This document shows positions 1,589 to 62,838 of a DNA stretch of 64,000 nt, in pieces (position 1 is the stretch's first letter; each line of letters starts with the position of its first letter). The notes under the pieces are model-generated. The model made no database searches. It was not told the DNA's origin and worked only from the letters and a program-made list of their open reading frames with translations. The stretch comes from Deltaproteobacteria bacterium (GTDB lineage: Bacteria; SZUA-79; Acidulodesulfobacterales; Acidulodesulfobacteraceae): assembly GCA_023489335.1 (NCBI GenBank), contig JAMDCP010000002.1:62001-126000 (forward strand). Reading direction: 5' to 3'. A program made the position numbers and the translations under genes.

Positions 1589-2131
1589 ATGGGAGACACA
1601 ATGACAAAGAATGTAAAGAGATTACTAATTTTTGTTGTTTTCGCGGTTTTCGCCGGCGCTATTTTTAGTATTCCGTCTTACGCATCATCTTTATCCGCTA
1701 AAAAAAGTGCAGCCAAAATTGCGATGATAAGAAAATATTTCTTATCCCATTCTTATAATTTTGGTCCAATTTTTTATAAATATCATCCTGGTCCAAACTG
1801 GTATCTCCAGCATGCTAAAAGCTTAAGGCTTACCCCAAGCCAGTTAATAACCGTTAAAAAATTGGATGCGGGAATGATTAAAGATACTATTATCGGAATG
1901 CGGAATCTCAAGGCGGCTTACGCAAAATACAAAGAAGACTCAATGAAAGTCAATCCTAACATTAAAACTATCGTTAATGATATAAAAAAAGTGGGAGAAG
2001 CCCAAACTTATCTTGCTTATGAGATGGTGCCTTATCACCTTAAAAGCTACACCCTTTTAACATCCGCCCAAAAAAAGATATTTAACGAACTACGAATGAC
2101 AAAATTAAATGCCGGCTGCTTAGGAAAATAA
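1589..2131 (+). CDS. Small exported protein with LTxxQ motifs (Spy/CpxP-like)
   Basis: A 180-residue protein. A hydrophobic signal segment (about residues 11-32) precedes a likely signal peptidase site near SYASS. The rest is basic and helical with two LTxxQ motifs, LTPSQ at 81-85 and LTSAQ at 157-161, the hallmark of the Spy/CpxP periplasmic family of small chaperone or stress sensors. There are two possible starts: ATG 1589 with GGAGA six bases upstream, and ATG 1601 (MTKNVKRLL) with GGGAGA five bases upstream; the second gives a more typical signal peptide. TATAAT-like boxes lie at 1555-1560 and 1570-1575. It sits 25 bp before pheS but shares no obvious function with it. The family call is inferred from motif and layout only. 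Confidence 0.7.
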   Translation: MGDTMTKNVKRLLIFVVFAVFAGAIFSIPSYASSLSAKKSAAKIAMIRKYFLSHSYNFGPIFYKYHPGPNWYLQHAKSLRLTPSQLITVKKLDAGMIKDTIIGMRNLKAAYAKYKEDSMKVNPNIKTIVNDIKKVGEAQTYLAYEMVPYHLKSYTLLTSAQKKIFNELRMTKLNAGCLGK

Positions 2132-2156: not shown

Positions 2157-3233
2157 ATGGATAATGAAATTGGGAACGGCGCTAAGCCGGGTGCGGGTTC
2201 AAATCAGCAAAGCTCGTTTTTAGGTAAAATCGGCGAAATTTTAGAAAACGCATTAAACGAATTAAAGGCTGCAAGAGATTTATCCGAGTTGGAAATTAGG
2301 TTTAAATTTTTTTGCGGCAAAAAAGGCAGGCTCACCGAAATACTTCATTTAATTCATTCTTTAAGCCCCGAAGAAAAAAGGAATATAGGGTCTAAAGCTA
2401 ACGAAGCCAGAAAGCGGATTGAAGCATTTTATCAAAATAAAAAAAATGAATTATTAGAAGCCTCTAAAATAGGGCTGCCTAAAAAACATAAATTGGATTT
2501 AACCATTCCGGGTGCTTATATCGAAAAATTCCATAAACATCCTATTACGGCAGTTCTCGAAGAAGCGGTTAATTTTTTTTCCTCGATGGGTTTTGAAGTA
2601 GTCGAAGGTCCGGAAATAGAAACTGCGTATTACAATTTCGATGCCTTAAATATTCCCGCAAACCATCCGGCGAGGGATGTTTGGGACACATTTTATCTTT
2701 TGAACGGACTGGTTCCCCGTACCCATACATCAAGCGTTCAGGTTAGAACCATGGAAAAAAAATCTCCTCCGTTTAGAGTTATAGCGCCGGGCAGATGTTA
2801 CAGGTACGAGGCTGTCGATGCAACGCATCTATTTATGTTTAATCAGCTCGAGGGGCTTTTTGTGGATAAAAATGTTAGATTAACCGATTTAAAAGGTATT
2901 TTAGAAGAAACGGTTAAATATCTTTTAGGCGCAAAAAAAACCAGGTTCAGACCCGCGTTTTATCCATTTGTGGAACCGGGCCTTGATTTAGATATAGAAT
3001 GCGTATTTTGCGGCGGCAGAGGATGCGGCATTTGTAAACAGACGGGCTGGATAGAGGTTATTCCGTGCGGCATGGTTCACCCTAATGTTTTTAAGTATGC
3101 TAAGATAGACCCGAACGAGTATCGAGGATTTGCCTTTGGAATGGGATTCGACAGGATTGTAATGTTGAAATATAACATCAATGATTTAAGATTTCTTTAT
3201 CAGGGAAACTTAGATGTATTAAGCCAGTTTTGA
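2157..3233 (+). CDS. pheS: Phenylalanine-tRNA ligase alpha subunit
   Basis: PheS, with PheT, forms the alpha2-beta2 cytoplasmic enzyme that charges tRNA-Phe; the alpha subunit holds the class II catalytic core. At 358 residues it is slightly longer than usual because of a polar N-terminal tail of about 20 residues before the coiled-coil arm (about 25-110). Core signatures are GPEIETAYYNFDALN, PRTHTSSVQVR, RYEAVDATHLFMFNQLEG and the C-terminal motif 3 GFAFGMGFDRIVML. A four-cysteine patch (CVFC, CGIC) sits where many bacterial PheS carry similar cysteines. The partner pheT is not adjacent: it begins 3.75 kb downstream, after an opposite-strand helicase and two further genes. pheS ends one base before the stop of the convergent helicase gene. 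Confidence 0.95.
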   Translation: MDNEIGNGAKPGAGSNQQSSFLGKIGEILENALNELKAARDLSELEIRFKFFCGKKGRLTEILHLIHSLSPEEKRNIGSKANEARKRIEAFYQNKKNELLEASKIGLPKKHKLDLTIPGAYIEKFHKHPITAVLEEAVNFFSSMGFEVVEGPEIETAYYNFDALNIPANHPARDVWDTFYLLNGLVPRTHTSSVQVRTMEKKSPPFRVIAPGRCYRYEAVDATHLFMFNQLEGLFVDKNVRLTDLKGILEETVKYLLGAKKTRFRPAFYPFVEPGLDLDIECVFCGGRGCGICKQTGWIEVIPCGMVHPNVFKYAKIDPNEYRGFAFGMGFDRIVMLKYNINDLRFLYQGNLDVLSQF

Positions 3234-3234
3234 C

Positions 3235-5334
3235 CTACGCCAAAAATTCGGACTTCTTCCCGGAGTATGTTATAAAAACTTTCTTCTTTGCCCTTGAAAC
3301 CGCAACATAAAATAGTTTAATTTCATCCTCATATGCGCTATTCCCATTAATACCGTTATATAGAAAAACCTGGAACGGGTGGTTTAAATTTCCGGTTTTT
3401 TTATTTTTGCCATATGCCTGCATTAAACTTTTTAAGTGCGGTATGTTGCCATTATTTACATTTACAATAAATACGGTATCAAATTCCATCCCTTTGCTTT
3501 TATGGATTGTTCCGATAAACCAATTTTTAAAATTTGCATAGCCTTCGGGATTTATTTCTTTTAAAATTTTTTTAAAATTATCCTCCTCTTTTTGTGTTCT
3601 GACAAGAACCCCTATATTTTCCCCCTTAGCCAGATGCAAATTAAATTGGCCGATAATAAATCTTTCCTCCGAATTTTTACTTTCGAAGCCTATAATATCA
3701 ATGACATTTTCATCGGGCAATATAAGCTTTCCGCCGGATTCTATCATTTTTTTAGGAAATCTAAAATTTATATTATTAAGGAGGGAATTGCAAAAGTTTA
3801 TAATTTTTGAATTAGACCGGTAATTATATTGCATTATAAATAATTTTCCCGAAGGATAAAATAAATCGAAGAAAAGAAGATTTGCGCAGTCGCCGCCGTT
3901 AAAACCATAGATAGATTGGTCGTCGTCCCCCGCATACATCGTAATGCCCCTGCCGCTGTCTATTTTTTTGATAATAATATCGCTTAAAAAATCCAGATCC
4001 TGATATTCGTCGACTAAAATATATTTAAACCGGCTTGCAATATCATAAACTATATCCTTATTTTTAAATAATTTTAAGACATTTAAAATCATGTCGTCGT
4101 AAGATATAAAACCGGTTTTAATATTTTCGCAAGCCTGTTCCTTTACTAACGGCACGGATTTAAATCCAAGTTCCAAATAATATTCCCTAATAATGGAATA
4201 GAAAAAACTATGGTATGTCGTAATATTTAATATTTTTTTTATATTAATATTACCCTTAAGCGCAAGGCGGCCAACGCGATTTTTTATTTCATTCGCAGCA
4301 TTATTCGTATATGTTAATACTAAAATTTCGCCGGGAGACATAAAATTCATAAGATATAAAAATTTATTTACGATCAGCCTGGTTTTCCCCGAACCTGCCC
4401 CAGCTATAACAAGGTGGGCTAAATTTAATTCTTTTATAGAAATATCCTGAATTTTACTCAATTTGTCATATTTAAATTTTACAGCCTTTTTATTATTCGA
4501 AACATTTTTAATGCCCCGGATAATAAACGGGAATATCTTAATTTTATTAATTATTTCGCCAGGGTTGAAATAAAGAACGTTAAATGAAATATTTAATATT
4601 ATTTTAGAATCTCCTATAAATTCGTCTTTTACGGCGATAATTTTTTTTAAAGGGTGGATTCTAAGCATTATTGTAAAATTATCTTTACCTATAAATTTTA
4701 AGCAAGGGCTGCCAGACGAGCTTTGAAGGTTTGAGCCGCTCCGAAGTGGGCGAAGCACGGACGGCGTCTCGTTGCAGGTTCCGGTTCCATTTTCTATAAA
4801 ATTAAATCCAAGACCCTTTATCTTTTTAATAATATAAGTTACCGCCCAAACAAATTTGCCGCTTTTATTAAAAATTATTCTCGTAGCCATTAAGAATCTA
4901 AGGCGGAGTTTAAAAATATCTATAATTAAGCCTTCATAAAAATTTTTGTCAAAATTATCATATATGTTTTGCAAGCCAAAGATATCCGAAATTACAGGGC
5001 ATAAAACAATTTTGTTATGCAAAACAAAATCGCATATCGCATTAAATAAGACGGCGTCCCGCAGATTTTCTATAAGCAAATCTTCTAAAATTATAAATTT
5101 CGAAGAGAAAAGTTCTTCGATGCCTTTCAAAGGAAAATTAAGCGGACAGGAAATTTTATTGTCGTTATAAAGCCGCAAAGAAGATTTCATTTTAATAAAG
5201 GATATAACATTGTAGTCTAATTCCAAATTTTTTAGATTTTTTATAAATGATTTTTTCTCATCCCCCGAAAAAATGGCAATTCCTGTAAAGTTTGATAGAT
5301 TAAAATTGAAATTTTTAAAATAAAGATTTATCAT
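3235..5334 (-). CDS. UvrD/PcrA-like superfamily 1 helicase with long N-terminal extension
   Basis: A 699-residue protein with a complete set of SF1A helicase motifs in its C-terminal 390 residues: motif I AGAGSGKT (311-318), Ia LTYTNNAANEI (340-350), II VDEYQD (441-446), III GDDDQSIYGF (469-478), IV NYRSN (504-508), V TIHKSKGMEF (609-618) and VI LFYVAVSRAKK (674-684). It should be an ATP-driven 3'-5' DNA translocase. The first 300 residues match nothing I recognise; UvrD and Rep normally begin at motif I within about 30 residues. The helicase domains are compact, with short 1B/2B insertions. It is transcribed against pheS, with only one base between the stop codons, and divergently from the PRTase gene 44 bp away. 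Codon use is as AT-rich as its neighbours except for a GC-rich in-frame block at 4702-4788. It is probably not the housekeeping UvrD. Confidence 0.85.
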   Translation of the reverse strand: MINLYFKNFNFNLSNFTGIAIFSGDEKKSFIKNLKNLELDYNVISFIKMKSSLRLYNDNKISCPLNFPLKGIEELFSSKFIILEDLLIENLRDAVLFNAICDFVLHNKIVLCPVISDIFGLQNIYDNFDKNFYEGLIIDIFKLRLRFLMATRIIFNKSGKFVWAVTYIIKKIKGLGFNFIENGTGTCNETPSVLRPLRSGSNLQSSSGSPCLKFIGKDNFTIMLRIHPLKKIIAVKDEFIGDSKIILNISFNVLYFNPGEIINKIKIFPFIIRGIKNVSNNKKAVKFKYDKLSKIQDISIKELNLAHLVIAGAGSGKTRLIVNKFLYLMNFMSPGEILVLTYTNNAANEIKNRVGRLALKGNINIKKILNITTYHSFFYSIIREYYLELGFKSVPLVKEQACENIKTGFISYDDMILNVLKLFKNKDIVYDIASRFKYILVDEYQDLDFLSDIIIKKIDSGRGITMYAGDDDQSIYGFNGGDCANLLFFDLFYPSGKLFIMQYNYRSNSKIINFCNSLLNNINFRFPKKMIESGGKLILPDENVIDIIGFESKNSEERFIIGQFNLHLAKGENIGVLVRTQKEEDNFKKILKEINPEGYANFKNWFIGTIHKSKGMEFDTVFIVNVNNGNIPHLKSLMQAYGKNKKTGNLNHPFQVFLYNGINGNSAYEDEIKLFYVAVSRAKKKVFITYSGKKSEFLA
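4702..4788. repeat. GC-rich in-frame segment inside the helicase gene
   Basis: Counted by hand, 55 of these 87 bases are G or C (63 percent), against roughly 30 percent in the surrounding gene. The block is exactly 29 codons and keeps the frame, adding a Ser/Leu/Arg-rich stretch (about residues 182-211, with the pattern VLRPLRSGS...SSSGSP) in the unassigned N-terminal region. Its plus strand contains GCGAAGCACGGA, close to words in rseP (10110-10120) and in the obgE-rpmA gap (60774-60785). It may be an inserted short repeat; a native linker is the alternative. Confidence 0.45.
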
Positions 5335-5378
5335 AATAAAATCGGTATATATTTTTATTCTTACTAACCTTAATTAAA

Positions 5379-5969
5379 ATGCAAAGCAAAATTTTAAAAA
5401 ATAATATAAATATAGGCGCAGGTGGGGAATATTTTTACATAAGAAATTATATTCCAAGAAATAAAAAATATGCCTATTCCTCTTTCGATGAATATTCCGA
5501 ATTAATACTGCGATATAAAAAAGGGGATTATAAAATAATATCATTTTTTGCAAGACTTTTAAGCAATATAATTTATTACTATTTTTATCCATACGATTTA
5601 ATTTTGCCTGTGCCGCCAAGCAGTTCTTATCTCGACATTTATCCAAATAGCATAGTTTGTTCATATTTAAACTCGGCCGGCTTGATTGGTTATTTGAAAG
5701 ACGAAATAGTTTGCATTAAGGGGCATAAGCCCAATCATATAACGGGAACAAAATACGAAAAAAGCCCTATAAGCTCTATTTTAATTAAAGGCAAAGGTGA
5801 GTTAAAATCAAAAAATATTATTTTATTTGACGATATTATCACTACCGGGGCAACATTTAGGCAAATAAAACAAACCTTATTGAAAAAGGGGGCGAATTCC
5901 GTTATAGGTCTTTTTCTGGGAAAAACTGCCGGAAGCTGCGGTAAATTGCAAGGGGATTTTAATGGATGA
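5379..5969 (+). CDS. ComF-like phosphoribosyltransferase-fold protein
   Basis: A 196-residue protein with the type I phosphoribosyltransferase signature IILFDDIITTGAT at 147-159, the loop that binds PRPP through the DD pair and TTG. An upstream segment YDLILPVPPS (72-81) resembles the LPVP segment of ComF/ComFC. The N-terminal four-cysteine zinc finger of ComF is absent, and the usual RGFNQ after LPVP is replaced by an unrelated sequence. ComF proteins bind single-stranded DNA during natural transformation. The gene starts 44 bp from the divergent helicase and its stop overlaps the start of the DprA-like gene by 8 bases, so translational coupling is likely. No good ribosome-binding site precedes ATG 5379. 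A nucleotide-salvage role is possible but less likely next to a DprA. Confidence 0.7.
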   Translation: MQSKILKNNINIGAGGEYFYIRNYIPRNKKYAYSSFDEYSELILRYKKGDYKIISFFARLLSNIIYYYFYPYDLILPVPPSSSYLDIYPNSIVCSYLNSAGLIGYLKDEIVCIKGHKPNHITGTKYEKSPISSILIKGKGELKSKNIILFDDIITTGATFRQIKQTLLKKGANSVIGLFLGKTAGSCGKLQGDFNG

Positions 5970-6951
5970 TTTGATATGCACCCTTGCGCTAAAAAAAATT
6001 AAAGGATTAAAAAATATTCATATCTTTCTTTTACTGAAAACATTTAAAAATCCGTGCGATATTTTTGATGCAGGGAAACCCGACTTCTTAAAAGCAGGGC
6101 TTAAAGGTGAACAGATAGAAATTTTAAGGAATACGAGGGTTGTCAGGACTGCATTTTTTGAAGCTATCAATGAAATCGAGGAGGCTTCGAAAAATGGAAT
6201 TAAAATTATAACATATAACTCGCCGCTTTATCCTTATAATTTAAACTTTATAAGAAACAAGCCGATAATTTTGTATTATAAGGGGGTTTTGAAGGAAAAC
6301 TTAAAATTTGCGGCAGCGGTTGTCGGACAGAGAAATCCACCCGATTATTCATTGAAACTGGCCCAAAATTTAACCGAGCAGCTCTGTTCATCAGGGTTTT
6401 CAATAATAAGCGGTCTTGCAATGGGGATAGATGCCGTTGCGCATAATACCGCGCTAAAAAACAACTGTTACACGATTGCGTATATCGGCTCGGGCTTATT
6501 AGAATCAGTATATCCGCCTGAAAACAGAAATCTTTATCAAGAAATTATTTTGCGCAACGGAGCAATAGTTTCCGAATTTCCCCTGCATTCAAAAATTAGC
6601 GCTAAAAATTTAATTGCGAGAGATAGGCTTCAGAGCGGCTCAAGCCTTGGAACATTCGCTATATCGTCTCCGGTAAATGGCGGAACTATGAAAACCTGCG
6701 GTTTTTCTTTAAAGCAAAAAAGGCCGGTTTTTGTTCCCGAATATGCCAAAGAACTTATGGATTCAAAAGATAACTCCGGTTTGAAATCATTGCTGGGAAG
6801 AAACGGGGTGGTAGGGTTAAAATTAGATAAAGACGGCGCCCTTGATTTAGCGGAAGTTATGGACGAATTAAGAATCGTATATAATGACATTTATGAAGAA
6901 AAAACCGGCGCCCACAGTTCATTATTAATGCAACCCGGACTATTCGGTTAG
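5962..6951 (+). CDS. Divergent DprA/Smf-family DNA-processing protein
   Basis: 329 residues with the Rossmann core of DprA: VGQRNP (121-126), SGLAMGIDAVAH (150-161), GSGLLESVYPPENR (176-189) and SEFPL (204-208). A short N-terminal helix-hairpin-like region (1-45) precedes it. Canonical DprA carries RNRIIxGLS, part of the single-strand DNA-binding surface; here the position reads RDRLQSGSS (220-228), followed by GGTMKT instead of the usual SGALIT-type segment. No clear C-terminal winged helix is visible. DprA loads RecA onto incoming single-stranded DNA during transformation; divergent paralogues occur outside competence. The gene overlaps the PRTase gene by 8 bases and ends 33 bp before pheT. 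I call the family with good confidence but would not assume it is the housekeeping dprA. Confidence 0.8.
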   Translation: MDDLICTLALKKIKGLKNIHIFLLLKTFKNPCDIFDAGKPDFLKAGLKGEQIEILRNTRVVRTAFFEAINEIEEASKNGIKIITYNSPLYPYNLNFIRNKPIILYYKGVLKENLKFAAAVVGQRNPPDYSLKLAQNLTEQLCSSGFSIISGLAMGIDAVAHNTALKNNCYTIAYIGSGLLESVYPPENRNLYQEIILRNGAIVSEFPLHSKISAKNLIARDRLQSGSSLGTFAISSPVNGGTMKTCGFSLKQKRPVFVPEYAKELMDSKDNSGLKSLLGRNGVVGLKLDKDGALDLAEVMDELRIVYNDIYEEKTGAHSSLLMQPGLFG

Positions 6952-6984: not shown

Positions 6985-9414
6985 TTGAAAGTTAGCTTAA
7001 ATTGGCTTAAAGAGTTTGTAGGTTTCGACATAGACGGTGAAAAGATTGCAAATCTTTTTAATAATAGAACTATGGAGGTTGAAAAAATAATTCCGTATTT
7101 CCTGAAAAAATCTTTTAAGAATATCGTCGTCGGGGAAATACGGTCTATTAATGAACACCCTGCAAACGATAAGTTTGGAATTGCCGAGGTTTACGGCGGC
7201 GAAATTATCGGAATGAAAAAGGTGGTTTTTACGAAGGCGGGCCTTGATATTAAGGTTGGGGAGAAGCCGCTGATTGCAGCAAAGGGGGCTGTTTTCGAAA
7301 ATGGGCTGAAGATCAGGGATAAAGCAATCTTTGGCATTATTTCGGAGGCGGCATTTTGCTCCGAAAAGGATTTAGGTTTTCAGTTAAATATGCCGTCCAT
7401 TATAAAATTTCCTTTCGAAGAAACCGGCGCAACGGCATACGAAATATTTAACCTTGACGACACAGTTTTAGAATTCGACCTCGAGCCTAACAGGCCTGAT
7501 TTATTTGGTATATTGGGATTTGCGTACGAGTTATCCGCCATAATTAACAAAGAAATTATTTTACCCGAAATTTATAATGATATAGAGATTACGCCGGGAA
7601 AATTTTATGCCGCCCAGAGTGATAAATTAACTGTTAATGTAGAAAACAGGGATTTGATCCCCGCTTATATTGCAGTTAAAATTAGCAATATAAAGATAAA
7701 AGAATCGAGCTCGGATATTAAAAACAAACTAATAAAAAGCGGAATTAGACCGATTAACAATGTCGTGGACTTAACCAATATCGTTATGCTCGAGACATCC
7801 CAGCCGCTTCACGCCTTCGATGAAAAAAAGCTGGGCGGAAACCAAATAAATATTAGATTGGCAGGCGGCGGTGAGTCTATTCTTACTATAGACGGCAGGG
7901 AAAGAAAATTAACGAAAGGGGATATTGTCATAGAATGCGGGCAAAAAATAATAGCTCTTGCGGGAATTATGGGGGCTTTAAATAGCGAAATAGACGAAAG
8001 TTCGAAGTCCATTGTGGTAGAATCCGCAAACTTTGACATGTCGAGCATCAGGCGGACTTCGAGAATACTTTCCCTGAGGACCGACGCATCGACAAGGTTT
8101 GAAAAAGGATTGCACCCGTTAGTTTCCATTTTAGGAATTAAGAGGTTTATATATTTAGTGAAAAAATATATCCCCGATGCAAAGATTGAATGTTATGCTT
8201 ATGACATTAAGGAAGTGGAAAAGCCGCAAAGTTATTCTATAAAGTTCAAGGATTTATTTGAGTTTTCGGGCGAGGCAATTGAAAAGGGCAAGGCATTAAA
8301 TATTCTATCAAGGCTTGGGTATGATGTCCGCGAGGTAAAGCCTAAAATTAACGGAAATGGAGATATATTTGAAGCCGTCCCTCCGTATTTTAGAAACGAT
8401 ATATCGGATAAAGTCAATATTTATGAGGATGTCTTAAGGATATACGGCTATGAAAATATTAAATCCTCGATTCCGTACGGCATTTTAAATCCTCCTCCAA
8501 AAAACATAAATTACGAAACATCCATGATGCTTAGAGATTTACTAAGGTATAACGGTTTTATCGAAGTAATAAACCTGTCGTTAGTCGGAGAGCATGAGCT
8601 TAGAATATCGGGCAGTAAAAAGGATAAAATTTTGGAGCTAAAAAACCCGATTTCGGCGGATTACACATATTTTAGAACAAGTTTAGTCCCCGATATCCTG
8701 AGGGTTTTATCTCAAAATTCAAAAAAATATAAAAATATAAAAATATTCGAGATTGGCAAGACTTATGTAAACGAACCTTCGGATAATTACCCGGTTTTGG
8801 AACAAAATGTCTTGTGCGGACTGTTATGCAGCGGAATAAAACTTGACAAACAAGAAACGGAATTTTACGGCGGCAAGGGTATAATAGAATTTTTACTCAA
8901 AGAATTGGGCCTTAAAAAAATTGTTTATTCAAAAATAGAGGATAACCCTATATTTGATATTTATACTTCTTTGGAAGTTTTAATAGGCAAAAAAAGGCTA
9001 GGTATTTTTGGCGAAATAAAGAGGAATATATTGGAAGAGTCAGGGATAGATTATAAGACCTTTGTTTTTGATATTGATTTAGACTCTCTTAAAGAATTTA
9101 TTTCATTAAAAAAGACATTCGTTATACCGCCTAAATATCCCGAAATAGAACAGGATATTTCTATTATTGCGGATTCAAATATAGAATATGGAAGCATTGA
9201 AAAGTATATAAAGGGCTTTTCGGAATTAATCAGAAATGTGAGGCTGGCGGATATTTATACGGGCAAACAAATAGAAGAAGGCAAAGTATCCTTTCTTATA
9301 AGATATGACATGGCAGCGGGCGATAGAACTTTAACTATGGAAGAAGTAAACTTGTTAAGGGATAACCTGTTAAAAGAACTGGGCAGCCGGTTCGGAATAA
9401 CCTTAAGGAGTTAA
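6985..9414 (+). CDS. pheT: Phenylalanine-tRNA ligase beta subunit
   Basis: An 809-residue PheT, the normal length. The TTG start at 6985 is fixed by the conserved beginning (M)KVSLNWLKEFV and by AAGGAGG at 6967-6973. Domains in order are the EMAP-II-like tRNA-binding OB fold (about 40-150), the B3/B4 editing domain (NRPDLFGILG, then RPINNVVDLTNIVM and QPLHAFD), the B5 domain (about 405-485, PPYFRNDI...NIYEDVLRIYGY), the class II-like core (about 500-690) and a C-terminal FDX-ACB anticodon-binding domain (about 715-809, starting at PPKYPEIEQDISI). It edits mischarged Tyr-tRNA-Phe and binds the tRNA. It is separated from pheS by three genes, so balanced expression cannot rely on simple adjacency. 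The strong ribosome-binding site offsets the weak TTG start. Confidence 0.95.
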   Translation: MKVSLNWLKEFVGFDIDGEKIANLFNNRTMEVEKIIPYFLKKSFKNIVVGEIRSINEHPANDKFGIAEVYGGEIIGMKKVVFTKAGLDIKVGEKPLIAAKGAVFENGLKIRDKAIFGIISEAAFCSEKDLGFQLNMPSIIKFPFEETGATAYEIFNLDDTVLEFDLEPNRPDLFGILGFAYELSAIINKEIILPEIYNDIEITPGKFYAAQSDKLTVNVENRDLIPAYIAVKISNIKIKESSSDIKNKLIKSGIRPINNVVDLTNIVMLETSQPLHAFDEKKLGGNQINIRLAGGGESILTIDGRERKLTKGDIVIECGQKIIALAGIMGALNSEIDESSKSIVVESANFDMSSIRRTSRILSLRTDASTRFEKGLHPLVSILGIKRFIYLVKKYIPDAKIECYAYDIKEVEKPQSYSIKFKDLFEFSGEAIEKGKALNILSRLGYDVREVKPKINGNGDIFEAVPPYFRNDISDKVNIYEDVLRIYGYENIKSSIPYGILNPPPKNINYETSMMLRDLLRYNGFIEVINLSLVGEHELRISGSKKDKILELKNPISADYTYFRTSLVPDILRVLSQNSKKYKNIKIFEIGKTYVNEPSDNYPVLEQNVLCGLLCSGIKLDKQETEFYGGKGIIEFLLKELGLKKIVYSKIEDNPIFDIYTSLEVLIGKKRLGIFGEIKRNILEESGIDYKTFVFDIDLDSLKEFISLKKTFVIPPKYPEIEQDISIIADSNIEYGSIEKYIKGFSELIRNVRLADIYTGKQIEEGKVSFLIRYDMAAGDRTLTMEEVNLLRDNLLKELGSRFGITLRS

Positions 9415-61677: not shown

Positions 61678-62838
61678 ATGGAAAATATGGAAAAACCGGT
61701 TTTAGCTTTTAGTTCGGACGATATATTAGATAACATAAATGACGGAATTATCGTTATCGATGAAAATTACAAAATAGTTTATGCAAATAGGCGGTTTTTA
61801 AATGATGCCGGCCTGCCCGTTTCGGATGTTATAGGAGGCTATTGTTATAAGATAAGCCATTTCAGGGACGAGCCGTGCGACCCATTATTAGAATCGTGTT
61901 CGGTGGAAGAGGTTATTAAAAAAGGGAAGACGGTTAAGGTTATACACGGTCATTACGGGTTGGGAAAAAGGGAAATCGCCGTCGAAATAAACTCATCCCC
62001 TTTTTATGATAATTCAACTGGCAAAAGGTATGCGGTCGAGGTTTTAAGATGTTTGGGAAACGGTTCCAACGCCCAGCTCAAATTTAACTTGTCCCAAAGG
62101 CTTTCCGAAGTCGGCCTCCTGGCCGAGGGAGTGGCGCATGAAATAAATAATCCGCTTAACAATATATTGGCTTCCGTAGATATGATGAGGATGTGCTTCG
62201 GAAACAATGAGCTCATTCAAAGTAATCTTCCCGACGGTTTCAAAGAAGGCATCTGCGATATTAAAAAATATTTTGAATTGATAAGAACGGAGATCGAGAG
62301 GTGTAAAGATATCACAAAAAAGCTTCTCCTCCTATCCAGACCCGTATCGGTGAAAACCGATATAGTAAATGTCAATAAATCGGTGGATGAGAGCCTTTCT
62401 TTGCTTTCCTTCCTGGCAAACAAGAAGAATGTTATGATAAAGAAAAACTTTGCCGGTTGTCCTCCCCTGATTAGTTTTTCGGAAGCAGGGTTAAGGCAGG
62501 TTATACTTAATATAGGGCTTAACGCAATCCAGGCAGTTCAGGAAGAGTCAGGGGTTGTCTATTTTATAACTAAGATAATAAAGGATTATATTTATATATT
62601 GATTATAGATAACGGCCAGGGTATTGCGCCGGCCGATATCAAAAAGATTTTTGACCCCTTTTTTTCGAAAAATAAGGGCGCTGGAAGTACGGGGCTCGGG
62701 CTTTCCATATCTTTGAGCATAATTAAATCTCTCGGTGGCTCGATCGAGGTCAGGTCTAAACAGGATTTGGGAACAAAATTCGTAATAAAAATACCGGTTA
62801 AAAGTAACTTTAGGGAAAATATCGATAAAGAAAAATAA
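61678..62838 (+). CDS. PAS-domain sensor histidine kinase (soluble)
   Basis: 386 residues with no transmembrane segment. A PAS domain (about 14-125; ILDNINDGIIVIDENYKIVYANRRFL) includes a C-x5-C pair in CDPLLESC that could be redox- or metal-sensitive. HisKA follows with the phosphorylated histidine in EGVAHEINNPLNNILASV (about 154), then the HATPase with N-box LNIGLNAIQAV, G1 DNGQGIAP, F-box FDPFFS and G2 GSTGLGLSISLSI. This NtrB/ZraS-like kinase core usually pairs with sigma54 activators, and the next gene is one. The signal is unknown. Confidence 0.9.
   Translation: MENMEKPVLAFSSDDILDNINDGIIVIDENYKIVYANRRFLNDAGLPVSDVIGGYCYKISHFRDEPCDPLLESCSVEEVIKKGKTVKVIHGHYGLGKREIAVEINSSPFYDNSTGKRYAVEVLRCLGNGSNAQLKFNLSQRLSEVGLLAEGVAHEINNPLNNILASVDMMRMCFGNNELIQSNLPDGFKEGICDIKKYFELIRTEIERCKDITKKLLLLSRPVSVKTDIVNVNKSVDESLSLLSFLANKKNVMIKKNFAGCPPLISFSEAGLRQVILNIGLNAIQAVQEESGVVYFITKIIKDYIYILIIDNGQGIAPADIKKIFDPFFSKNKGAGSTGLGLSISLSIIKSLGGSIEVRSKQDLGTKFVIKIPVKSNFRENIDKEK

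Follow-up and report, generated by a model that had tools for sequence, protein, structure and literature searches.

Gene Organization between pheS and pheT

The window analyzed here is a stretch of 64,000 nucleotides from the genome of a member of the bacterial order Acidulodesulfobacterales (positions 62,001 to 126,000 of contig JAMDCP010000002.1, assembly GCA_023489335.1), in which three genes lie between pheS and pheT and encode a UvrD-like helicase of superfamily 1 (SF1), a phosphoribosyltransferase (PRTase) and a DprA-like protein. The original prediction, made from this DNA alone, had described a pheS-pheT gap of 3.75 kb that holds a helicase gene on the opposite strand and, divergent from it, an overlapping PRTase-dprA pair, and this layout is confirmed by open reading frame (ORF) calls and by Pfam, TIGR and PADLOC profiles. 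The helicase gene (3235..5334, minus strand; 699 amino acids; PF00580, 144 bits, and PF13361, 95 bits) converges on pheS (2157..3233, plus strand; PF01409) and diverges from the PRTase gene (5379..5969, plus strand; 196 amino acids; TIGR00201, 50 bits, and PADLOC ShosT, 62 bits). The start codons of these two genes are separated by 44 bp (5335..5378), in which promoter-like matches are not clearly above chance. The reading frames of the PRTase and of the DprA-like protein (5962..6951, plus strand; 329 amino acids; PF02481, DNA_processg_A, 173 bits) overlap by 8 bp (5962..5969). As pheT (6985..9414, plus strand; Pfam PheT) starts only 33 bp 3' of dprA, it is probably transcribed from the promoter of the PRTase-DprA operon.

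Conservation and Inheritance of the Locus

The GTDB sample used consists of 30 genomes, which make up the whole order as well as its class and phylum, and which belong to one family and six genera; they were analyzed by protein-family searches and at the loci surrounding the matches. A single DprA with an adjoining PRTase match was found in 29 of them, the exception being a 65%-complete assembly, and the pair sits between pheS and pheT in every genome in which the locus is assembled. In all but one genus, contigs of sufficient length have the genes in the order pheS, helicase (on the opposite strand), PRTase, DprA and pheT. The helicase is found at the locus in 27 of the 28 genomes with the pair and a sufficient contig (it is cut by the contig end in one of the 27), while in the differing genus, g4, it is cleanly missing, pheS is followed directly by the PRTase gene and the pair is kept. 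Since every relative with an assembled locus, bar this one genus, has kept the arrangement, it is neither an assembly artefact nor a product of chance. In the midpoint-rooted tree of pheS and pheT, g4 is one branch amid helicase-bearing genera, so a single loss is the simplest account of the missing helicase.

Pairwise protein distances of the locus genes track those of pheT (r = 0.89-0.91). Among close pairs of genomes, the ratio of nonsynonymous to synonymous substitution rates (dN/dS) of dprA is ~0.05-0.12 in eight of nine pairs and 0.24 in the least diverged one, that of the PRTase gene is 0.07-0.21 and that of the helicase gene, whose rate of evolution is almost double that of dprA, is 0.18-0.28. 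These low values indicate purifying selection on all three genes, and dprA is constrained as strongly as pheT. The locus is a core, vertically inherited one and not a recent insertion. Homology to ShosTA, a system of phages and plasmids with a PRTase toxin and a DprA-like antitoxin, could suggest a mobile defence island acquired recently, but the site is identical in all genera and the distances follow those of pheS and pheT. A recent mobile insertion was rejected on these grounds and is scarcely credible.

The DprA-Like Protein

The DprA-like protein is the sole DprA of the window genome and is present in a single copy. With TIGR00732, the dprA equivalog model, it scores 160 bits and does not reach the cut-off for canonical DprA of 191 bits; ShosA scores 171 bits, a RecQ-linked DprA 160 bits and Smf of Escherichia coli 296 bits. 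Nor does it belong to ShosA proper, as it scores 92 bits with the ShosA-specific PADLOC model PDLC02997, compared with 765 bits for ShosA of P2 and 73 bits for E. coli Smf. The altered signature residues pointed out in the original prediction are real and invariant in the order. In the Rossmann fold, GQR (residues 122-124; 6325..6333, plus strand) takes the place of G[ST]R in all 29 aligned members, whereas the reference DprAs have GTR or GSR at this position. The second change is RDRLQSG (residues 220-226; 6619..6639, plus strand) for canonical RNRIISG: the RNR[IL][IV] signature of canonical DprA reads RDRLQ, again in 29 of 29. By Pfam, no C-terminal winged helix is found in the window DprA, whose only matches are PF02481 and a sub-threshold one to SLOG.

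A Q at this signature position marks the DprA-like proteins that adjoin PRTases in phages and plasmids, and it is common to ShosA and the RecQ-linked DprA-like proteins; in the phage and plasmid loci surveyed, these Q-class DprAs usually adjoin a PRTase gene. The DprA of the order shares both the R[ND]R[IL]Q signature and the PRTase adjacency with the antitoxin-type DprAs (ShosA, PsyrA/RqlI). An IQ-TREE phylogeny of 52 DprAs unites the canonical chromosomal proteins in one clade with support of 100/99; the order lies outside this clade, near Q-class plasmid and phage DprAs that include a PRTase- and helicase-linked DprA of Tunicatimonas. Forcing the order into the canonical clade costs 10.9 log-likelihood units and is not rejected by the approximately unbiased (AU) test (p = 0.073), so the placement with antitoxin-type DprAs is favoured but not proven. 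A further type was seen on viral contigs (L100, L102, L114, L131 and similar), where phage DprA-like proteins have an RN[VSIT]xM signature that is neither RNR-I nor RxR-Q, some of them with a PRTase gene directly downstream.

A Clamp-Like Peptide at the C-Terminus

The window DprA ends in QPGLF (residues 324-328; 6931..6945, plus strand), a predicted beta-clamp-binding peptide. A Q-[PL]-x-L-F motif is found a few residues from the end, after a variable linker, in all 28 complete DprAs of the order (the window protein and 27 others), whose tails include QPGLFG, QPELFG, QLSLFD, QLCLFD and QLKLFE; all 28 thus fit the Q-x-x-[LM]-[FL] terminal pattern expected of putative clamp binders, and the peptides that bind the beta clamp in bacteria are described by the consensus QLSLF (PMC4549789). 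Comparable tails end other Q-class DprAs, namely QLSLLGDE in ShosA of P2, QLNMFNF in P. megaterium, QMSML in Sinorhizobium and Bradyrhizobium and QMTLFS in Tunicatimonas.

The frequency of such tails was surveyed by searching the 15 C-terminal residues of representatives less than 50% identical for the short and permissive motif Q..[LMI][FLM], the expectation being taken from shuffled tails. In the first set, which included the cases that had prompted the clamp idea, the motif is present in 9 of 25 Q-class DprA families (the order counted once; 0.64 expected) and in none of 16 canonical ones. Among phage families that were fetched later and held out, with less than 50% identity to the first set, it is present in 3 of 12 (0.30 expected), one of which ends in QPSLFG, and in none of 4 canonical families. 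Pooled, these are 12 of 37 antitoxin-type families versus 0 of 20 canonical ones (one-sided Fisher test, ~0.003, with relatedness only roughly controlled). Our literature search found no paper linking DprA-like antitoxins with a clamp-binding motif. The clamp-like tail on DprA-like antitoxins is a new lead, and clamp binding is predicted from it.

Several observations were made alongside this survey. The Sinorhizobium and Bradyrhizobium plasmids (L172, L181) carry, beside the Q-class DprAs ending exactly in QMSML, a HAD-PRTase with a C-terminal topoisomerase-type zinc ribbon. In Fusobacterium animalis (NZ_CP077186, 2239-8881), a second, Q-class DprA with the tail QKNLF overlaps the gene of a small membrane-like protein and not that of a PRTase. 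The genes of a KAP NTPase, divergently oriented, and of recQ lie nearby; this locus may be a system with another effector. In the window genome, the alpha subunit of DNA polymerase III (dnaE) has QFELPLF in its C-terminal part, possibly its own clamp-binding peptide, and the Y-family polymerase C-terminal domain PF11799 was not found in this 92%-complete assembly.

The PRTase and the Question of Competence

Profiles recognize the PRTase weakly. Its Pfam match of 20 bits is under the gathering score, and its score with TIGR00201 (comF) is far from the cut-off of 233 bits, although a low comF score alone is not diagnostic because just 2 of 14 control genomes have a protein that scores above this cut-off. 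Across the genomes of the order, the comF model matches these PRTases and two other, marginal proteins, all far under the cut-off. The loop that binds phosphoribosyl pyrophosphate (PRPP) is intact: it reads DDIITTG (residues 151-157; 5829..5849, plus strand), with D151, I153, T155 and G157 invariant in 28 members of the order, and it has the form seen in ComF and ComFC, being DDIITTGTTL in ComFC of Helicobacter pylori (PMC9005727). The AlphaFold model (mean pLDDT 76) matches many PRTases, the best by E-value being ShosT 8zvb, APRT, ShosT 8zvd, HGXPRT and H. pylori ComFC 7p0h, with ShosT 8zvc also among the best. As the TM-scores are modest, ~0.5, the model suggests a PRTase of the ShosT/ComF kind and says no more. 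Scans of viral contigs using the PRTase of the order found no relatives.

The original prediction had proposed a single-strand DNA module for uptake or for defence against foreign DNA. As a module for uptake, the trio would be a Gram-negative analogue of ComFA-ComFC-DprA that processes incoming DNA. The three fold classes (helicase-like ATPase, PRTase and DprA) are identical, ComFA-ComFC-DprA complexes are cited in PMC9005727 and the PRPP loop is nearly identical to that of H. pylori ComFC. However, the helicase is of SF1, and the PRTase sequence has, as had been predicted, none of the cysteines of the four-cysteine, ComFC-type zinc finger, which H. pylori ComFC needs (PMC9005727). Moreover, neither ComEC (PF03772) nor the ComEA helix-hairpin-helix (TIGR00426) was found in any of the 30 genomes by profile searches that were positive in control genomes, so a role in DNA uptake is very unlikely. 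The competence reading was rejected for this reason, and we consider such an analogue highly improbable. A second, canonical dprA or comF, which the original prediction had proposed to look for, was not found in the genome. The complete competence set that it had named as a counter-possibility does not lie beside the locus either.

The Helicase

Matches to PF00580 and PF13361 (the UvrD N- and C-terminal domains) confirm that the helicase is of SF1 and not of superfamily 2 (SF2), as had been proposed, and its scores are far under the equivalog cut-offs of PcrA, UvrD and Rep. Its Walker A motif is GAGSGKT (residues 312-318; 4381..4401, minus strand), with G312, A313, G314, G316, K317 and T318 invariant in 26 members of the order. 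The N-terminal ~285 residues (4480..5334, minus strand) evolve fast and have no recognised domain in Pfam and no homologue among plasmids; the AlphaFold model is of such low confidence (pLDDT 62, pTM 0.36) that its Foldseek matches, to UvrD, PcrA and Rep, cannot identify this domain. The window genome has a second UvrD-like paralogue. A reading of the helicase as GajB of Gabija was rejected: the GajB-type matches are to the shared UvrD core, and the neighbours are pheS and the PRTase gene, not a GajA nuclease.

Whether the helicase belongs with the pair can be weighed from its conservation. Its clean absence in g4, where the pair persists, its faster evolution and its position on the opposite strand would all fit two independent insertions, frozen in place since pheT is read from the PRTase-DprA operon. 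Against this, five of the six genera have kept the helicase and its motifs intact, and helicases recur beside DprA/PRTase systems (RqlH, pLAO18, Tunicatimonas). That the helicase is unrelated to the pair is a plausible alternative, if somewhat short of an even chance, and it is compatible with the toxin-antitoxin explanation of the pair given below.

Relation to Known Systems and Proposed Function

The locus resembles ShosTA (PDB 8zvb, 8zvd, 8zvc and 9vzo) in its adjacent PRTase and DprA-like genes, whose tight overlap is typical of ShosTA-like operons, in the RxR[IL]Q signature, in the PRTase fold and in the C-terminal Q-x-x-L-[LF] peptide. It differs in that the PRTase belongs to a different family at the sequence level, the PRTase gene precedes dprA whereas that of the P2 reference follows it, the locus is core chromosomal and not mobile, and a helicase is added. 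PsyrTA/RqlHI (a RecQ helicase-PRTase with the DprA-like RqlI) likewise unites a helicase, a PRTase and a DprA-like protein in one locus, but in the window the helicase is of SF1 and not RecQ (SF2), is divergent and missing in one genus, and is encoded by a gene separate from that of the PRTase. In phage SopEPhi, the PRTase-DprA pair orf14-orf15 has an identical gene order, similar sizes (193 and 325 amino acids) and a short overlap; it differs by low sequence similarity, an RNRIQV signature, the lack of a clamp-like C-terminus and its prophage location. Because tests of ShosTA, PsyrTA and canonical DprA each found defining features to be missing, the locus was assigned to none of them.

By the original prediction, a trio conserved in varied contexts would support a dedicated system, and on this point the outcome is mixed. 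The PRTase-DprA pair does turn up in diverse settings on phages and plasmids, but the exact trio has a single, fixed site and is confined to a single order. One comparable trio was found elsewhere, in another phylum, on the Tunicatimonas pelagia plasmid NZ_CP120684 (1574-6603), where a PRTase, the Q-class DprA and a UvrD helicase with a PD-(D/E)XK nuclease follow in a row; viral-contig scans using this DprA found no relatives. Homology supports the suggested link to DNA handling of the defence type: the DprA has the antitoxin-type signature and adjoins a PRTase, and the best structural match of this PRTase is ShosT. RqlH, a RecQ-PRTase, is bound and kept in check by RqlI, and its PRTase domain is genotoxic without RqlI (PMC4670107); a DprA-PRTase pair from a P2 hotspot gives E. 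coli protection against T7 and lambda (PMC9122126).

Based on these comparisons, we propose, with a probability of about 0.5, that the PRTase-DprA pair is related to the ShosTA and PsyrTA (RqlHI) toxin-antitoxin defence systems, lies on the chromosome, is inherited vertically and has been retained among the core genes of one order, with the SF1 helicase as an accessory. New relative to ShosTA and PsyrTA are the single-copy core locus, the minimal PRTase and the divergent SF1 helicase. The module may best be read as a toxin-antitoxin system or a checkpoint of the ShosTA-like type, fixed in the order and held at the replication clamp by a tether. From analogy with these systems, we infer toxicity, PRTase-DprA binding, clamp binding, a trigger and a role of the helicase as follows. 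The DprA-like protein would bind single-stranded DNA and the PRTase, like DprA, ComFC and RqlI, and would dock on the beta sliding clamp through its C-terminal QPxLF, so that the pair would be positioned at replication forks. In this tethered state, and as long as nothing provokes it, the protein would restrain the PRTase, as suggested by RqlI and ShosA. Abnormal single-stranded DNA, or a fork disturbed or hijacked by damage or phage, might then release the PRTase, which could spend PRPP or alter nucleotides or DNA, so that growth stops. The divergent helicase may remodel the same DNA substrates, like the RecQ domain in RqlH, and would be dispensable, as one genus is without it.

Several findings weigh against this proposal. 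The PRTase consists of the PRTase domain only, without the HAD domain of ShosT, and its profile alignment with E. coli GntX/YhgH extends over 94 columns, longer than that with a phage ShosT-like PRTase. The DprA gene belongs to the core, has one copy and evolves slowly, which is not the profile of a mobile defence gene. The general PADLOC ShosA model gives 194 bits for the window DprA and 195 bits for canonical E. coli Smf and is therefore no guide; matches to it were rejected as a classifier, as canonical Smf of Enterobacter scores equally high. Together with the AU test, which leaves a canonical grouping possible, the constraint equal to that of pheT and the presence of only one DprA and one ComF-like protein of note per genome, the GntX/YhgH alignment also speaks for the main rival, a harmless housekeeping pair. 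The DprA would then serve as the usual RecA mediator of the lineage and would have diverged owing to the loss of competence, and the PRTase would be a ComF/GntX protein of DNA utilisation in reduced form; the non-toxic pair would tend single-stranded DNA gaps, with the clamp peptide doing no more than recruiting DprA to forks. Arguments against this rival are the changes to R[ND]R[IL]Q and GQR, the lack of a winged helix, the position of the DprA in the best tree and the tight overlap of the two genes, and we regard it as possible but rather doubtful.

Extending the toxin-antitoxin proposal, DprA-type antitoxins of PRTase systems may generally be clamp-tethered sensors that, in this order, were domesticated with an SF1 helicase as a fixed fork checkpoint replacing canonical DprA, a generalization that we consider unlikely as a whole. 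How ShosTA- and PsyrTA-like systems sense invaders is addressed in PMC9122126 as a hypothesis only, its authors proposing DprA as the sensor of phage DNA and the activator of the PRTase, and our literature search found no paper on the mechanism. If the generalization were true, the clamp-binding tail on many DprA-like partners would be a concrete answer, in that the replication clamp is watched, and this hook-like tail of the sensor may account for the way in which such systems monitor replication. It would also mean that defence modules of this kind can become core genes, and it would help to explain why DprA-like proteins are retained in non-competent bacteria.

Directly 5' of pheS, the window (1589-2131, plus strand) also encodes a 180-amino-acid protein with a weak match, at a sub-gathering score, to LTXXQ (CpxP/Spy-like).

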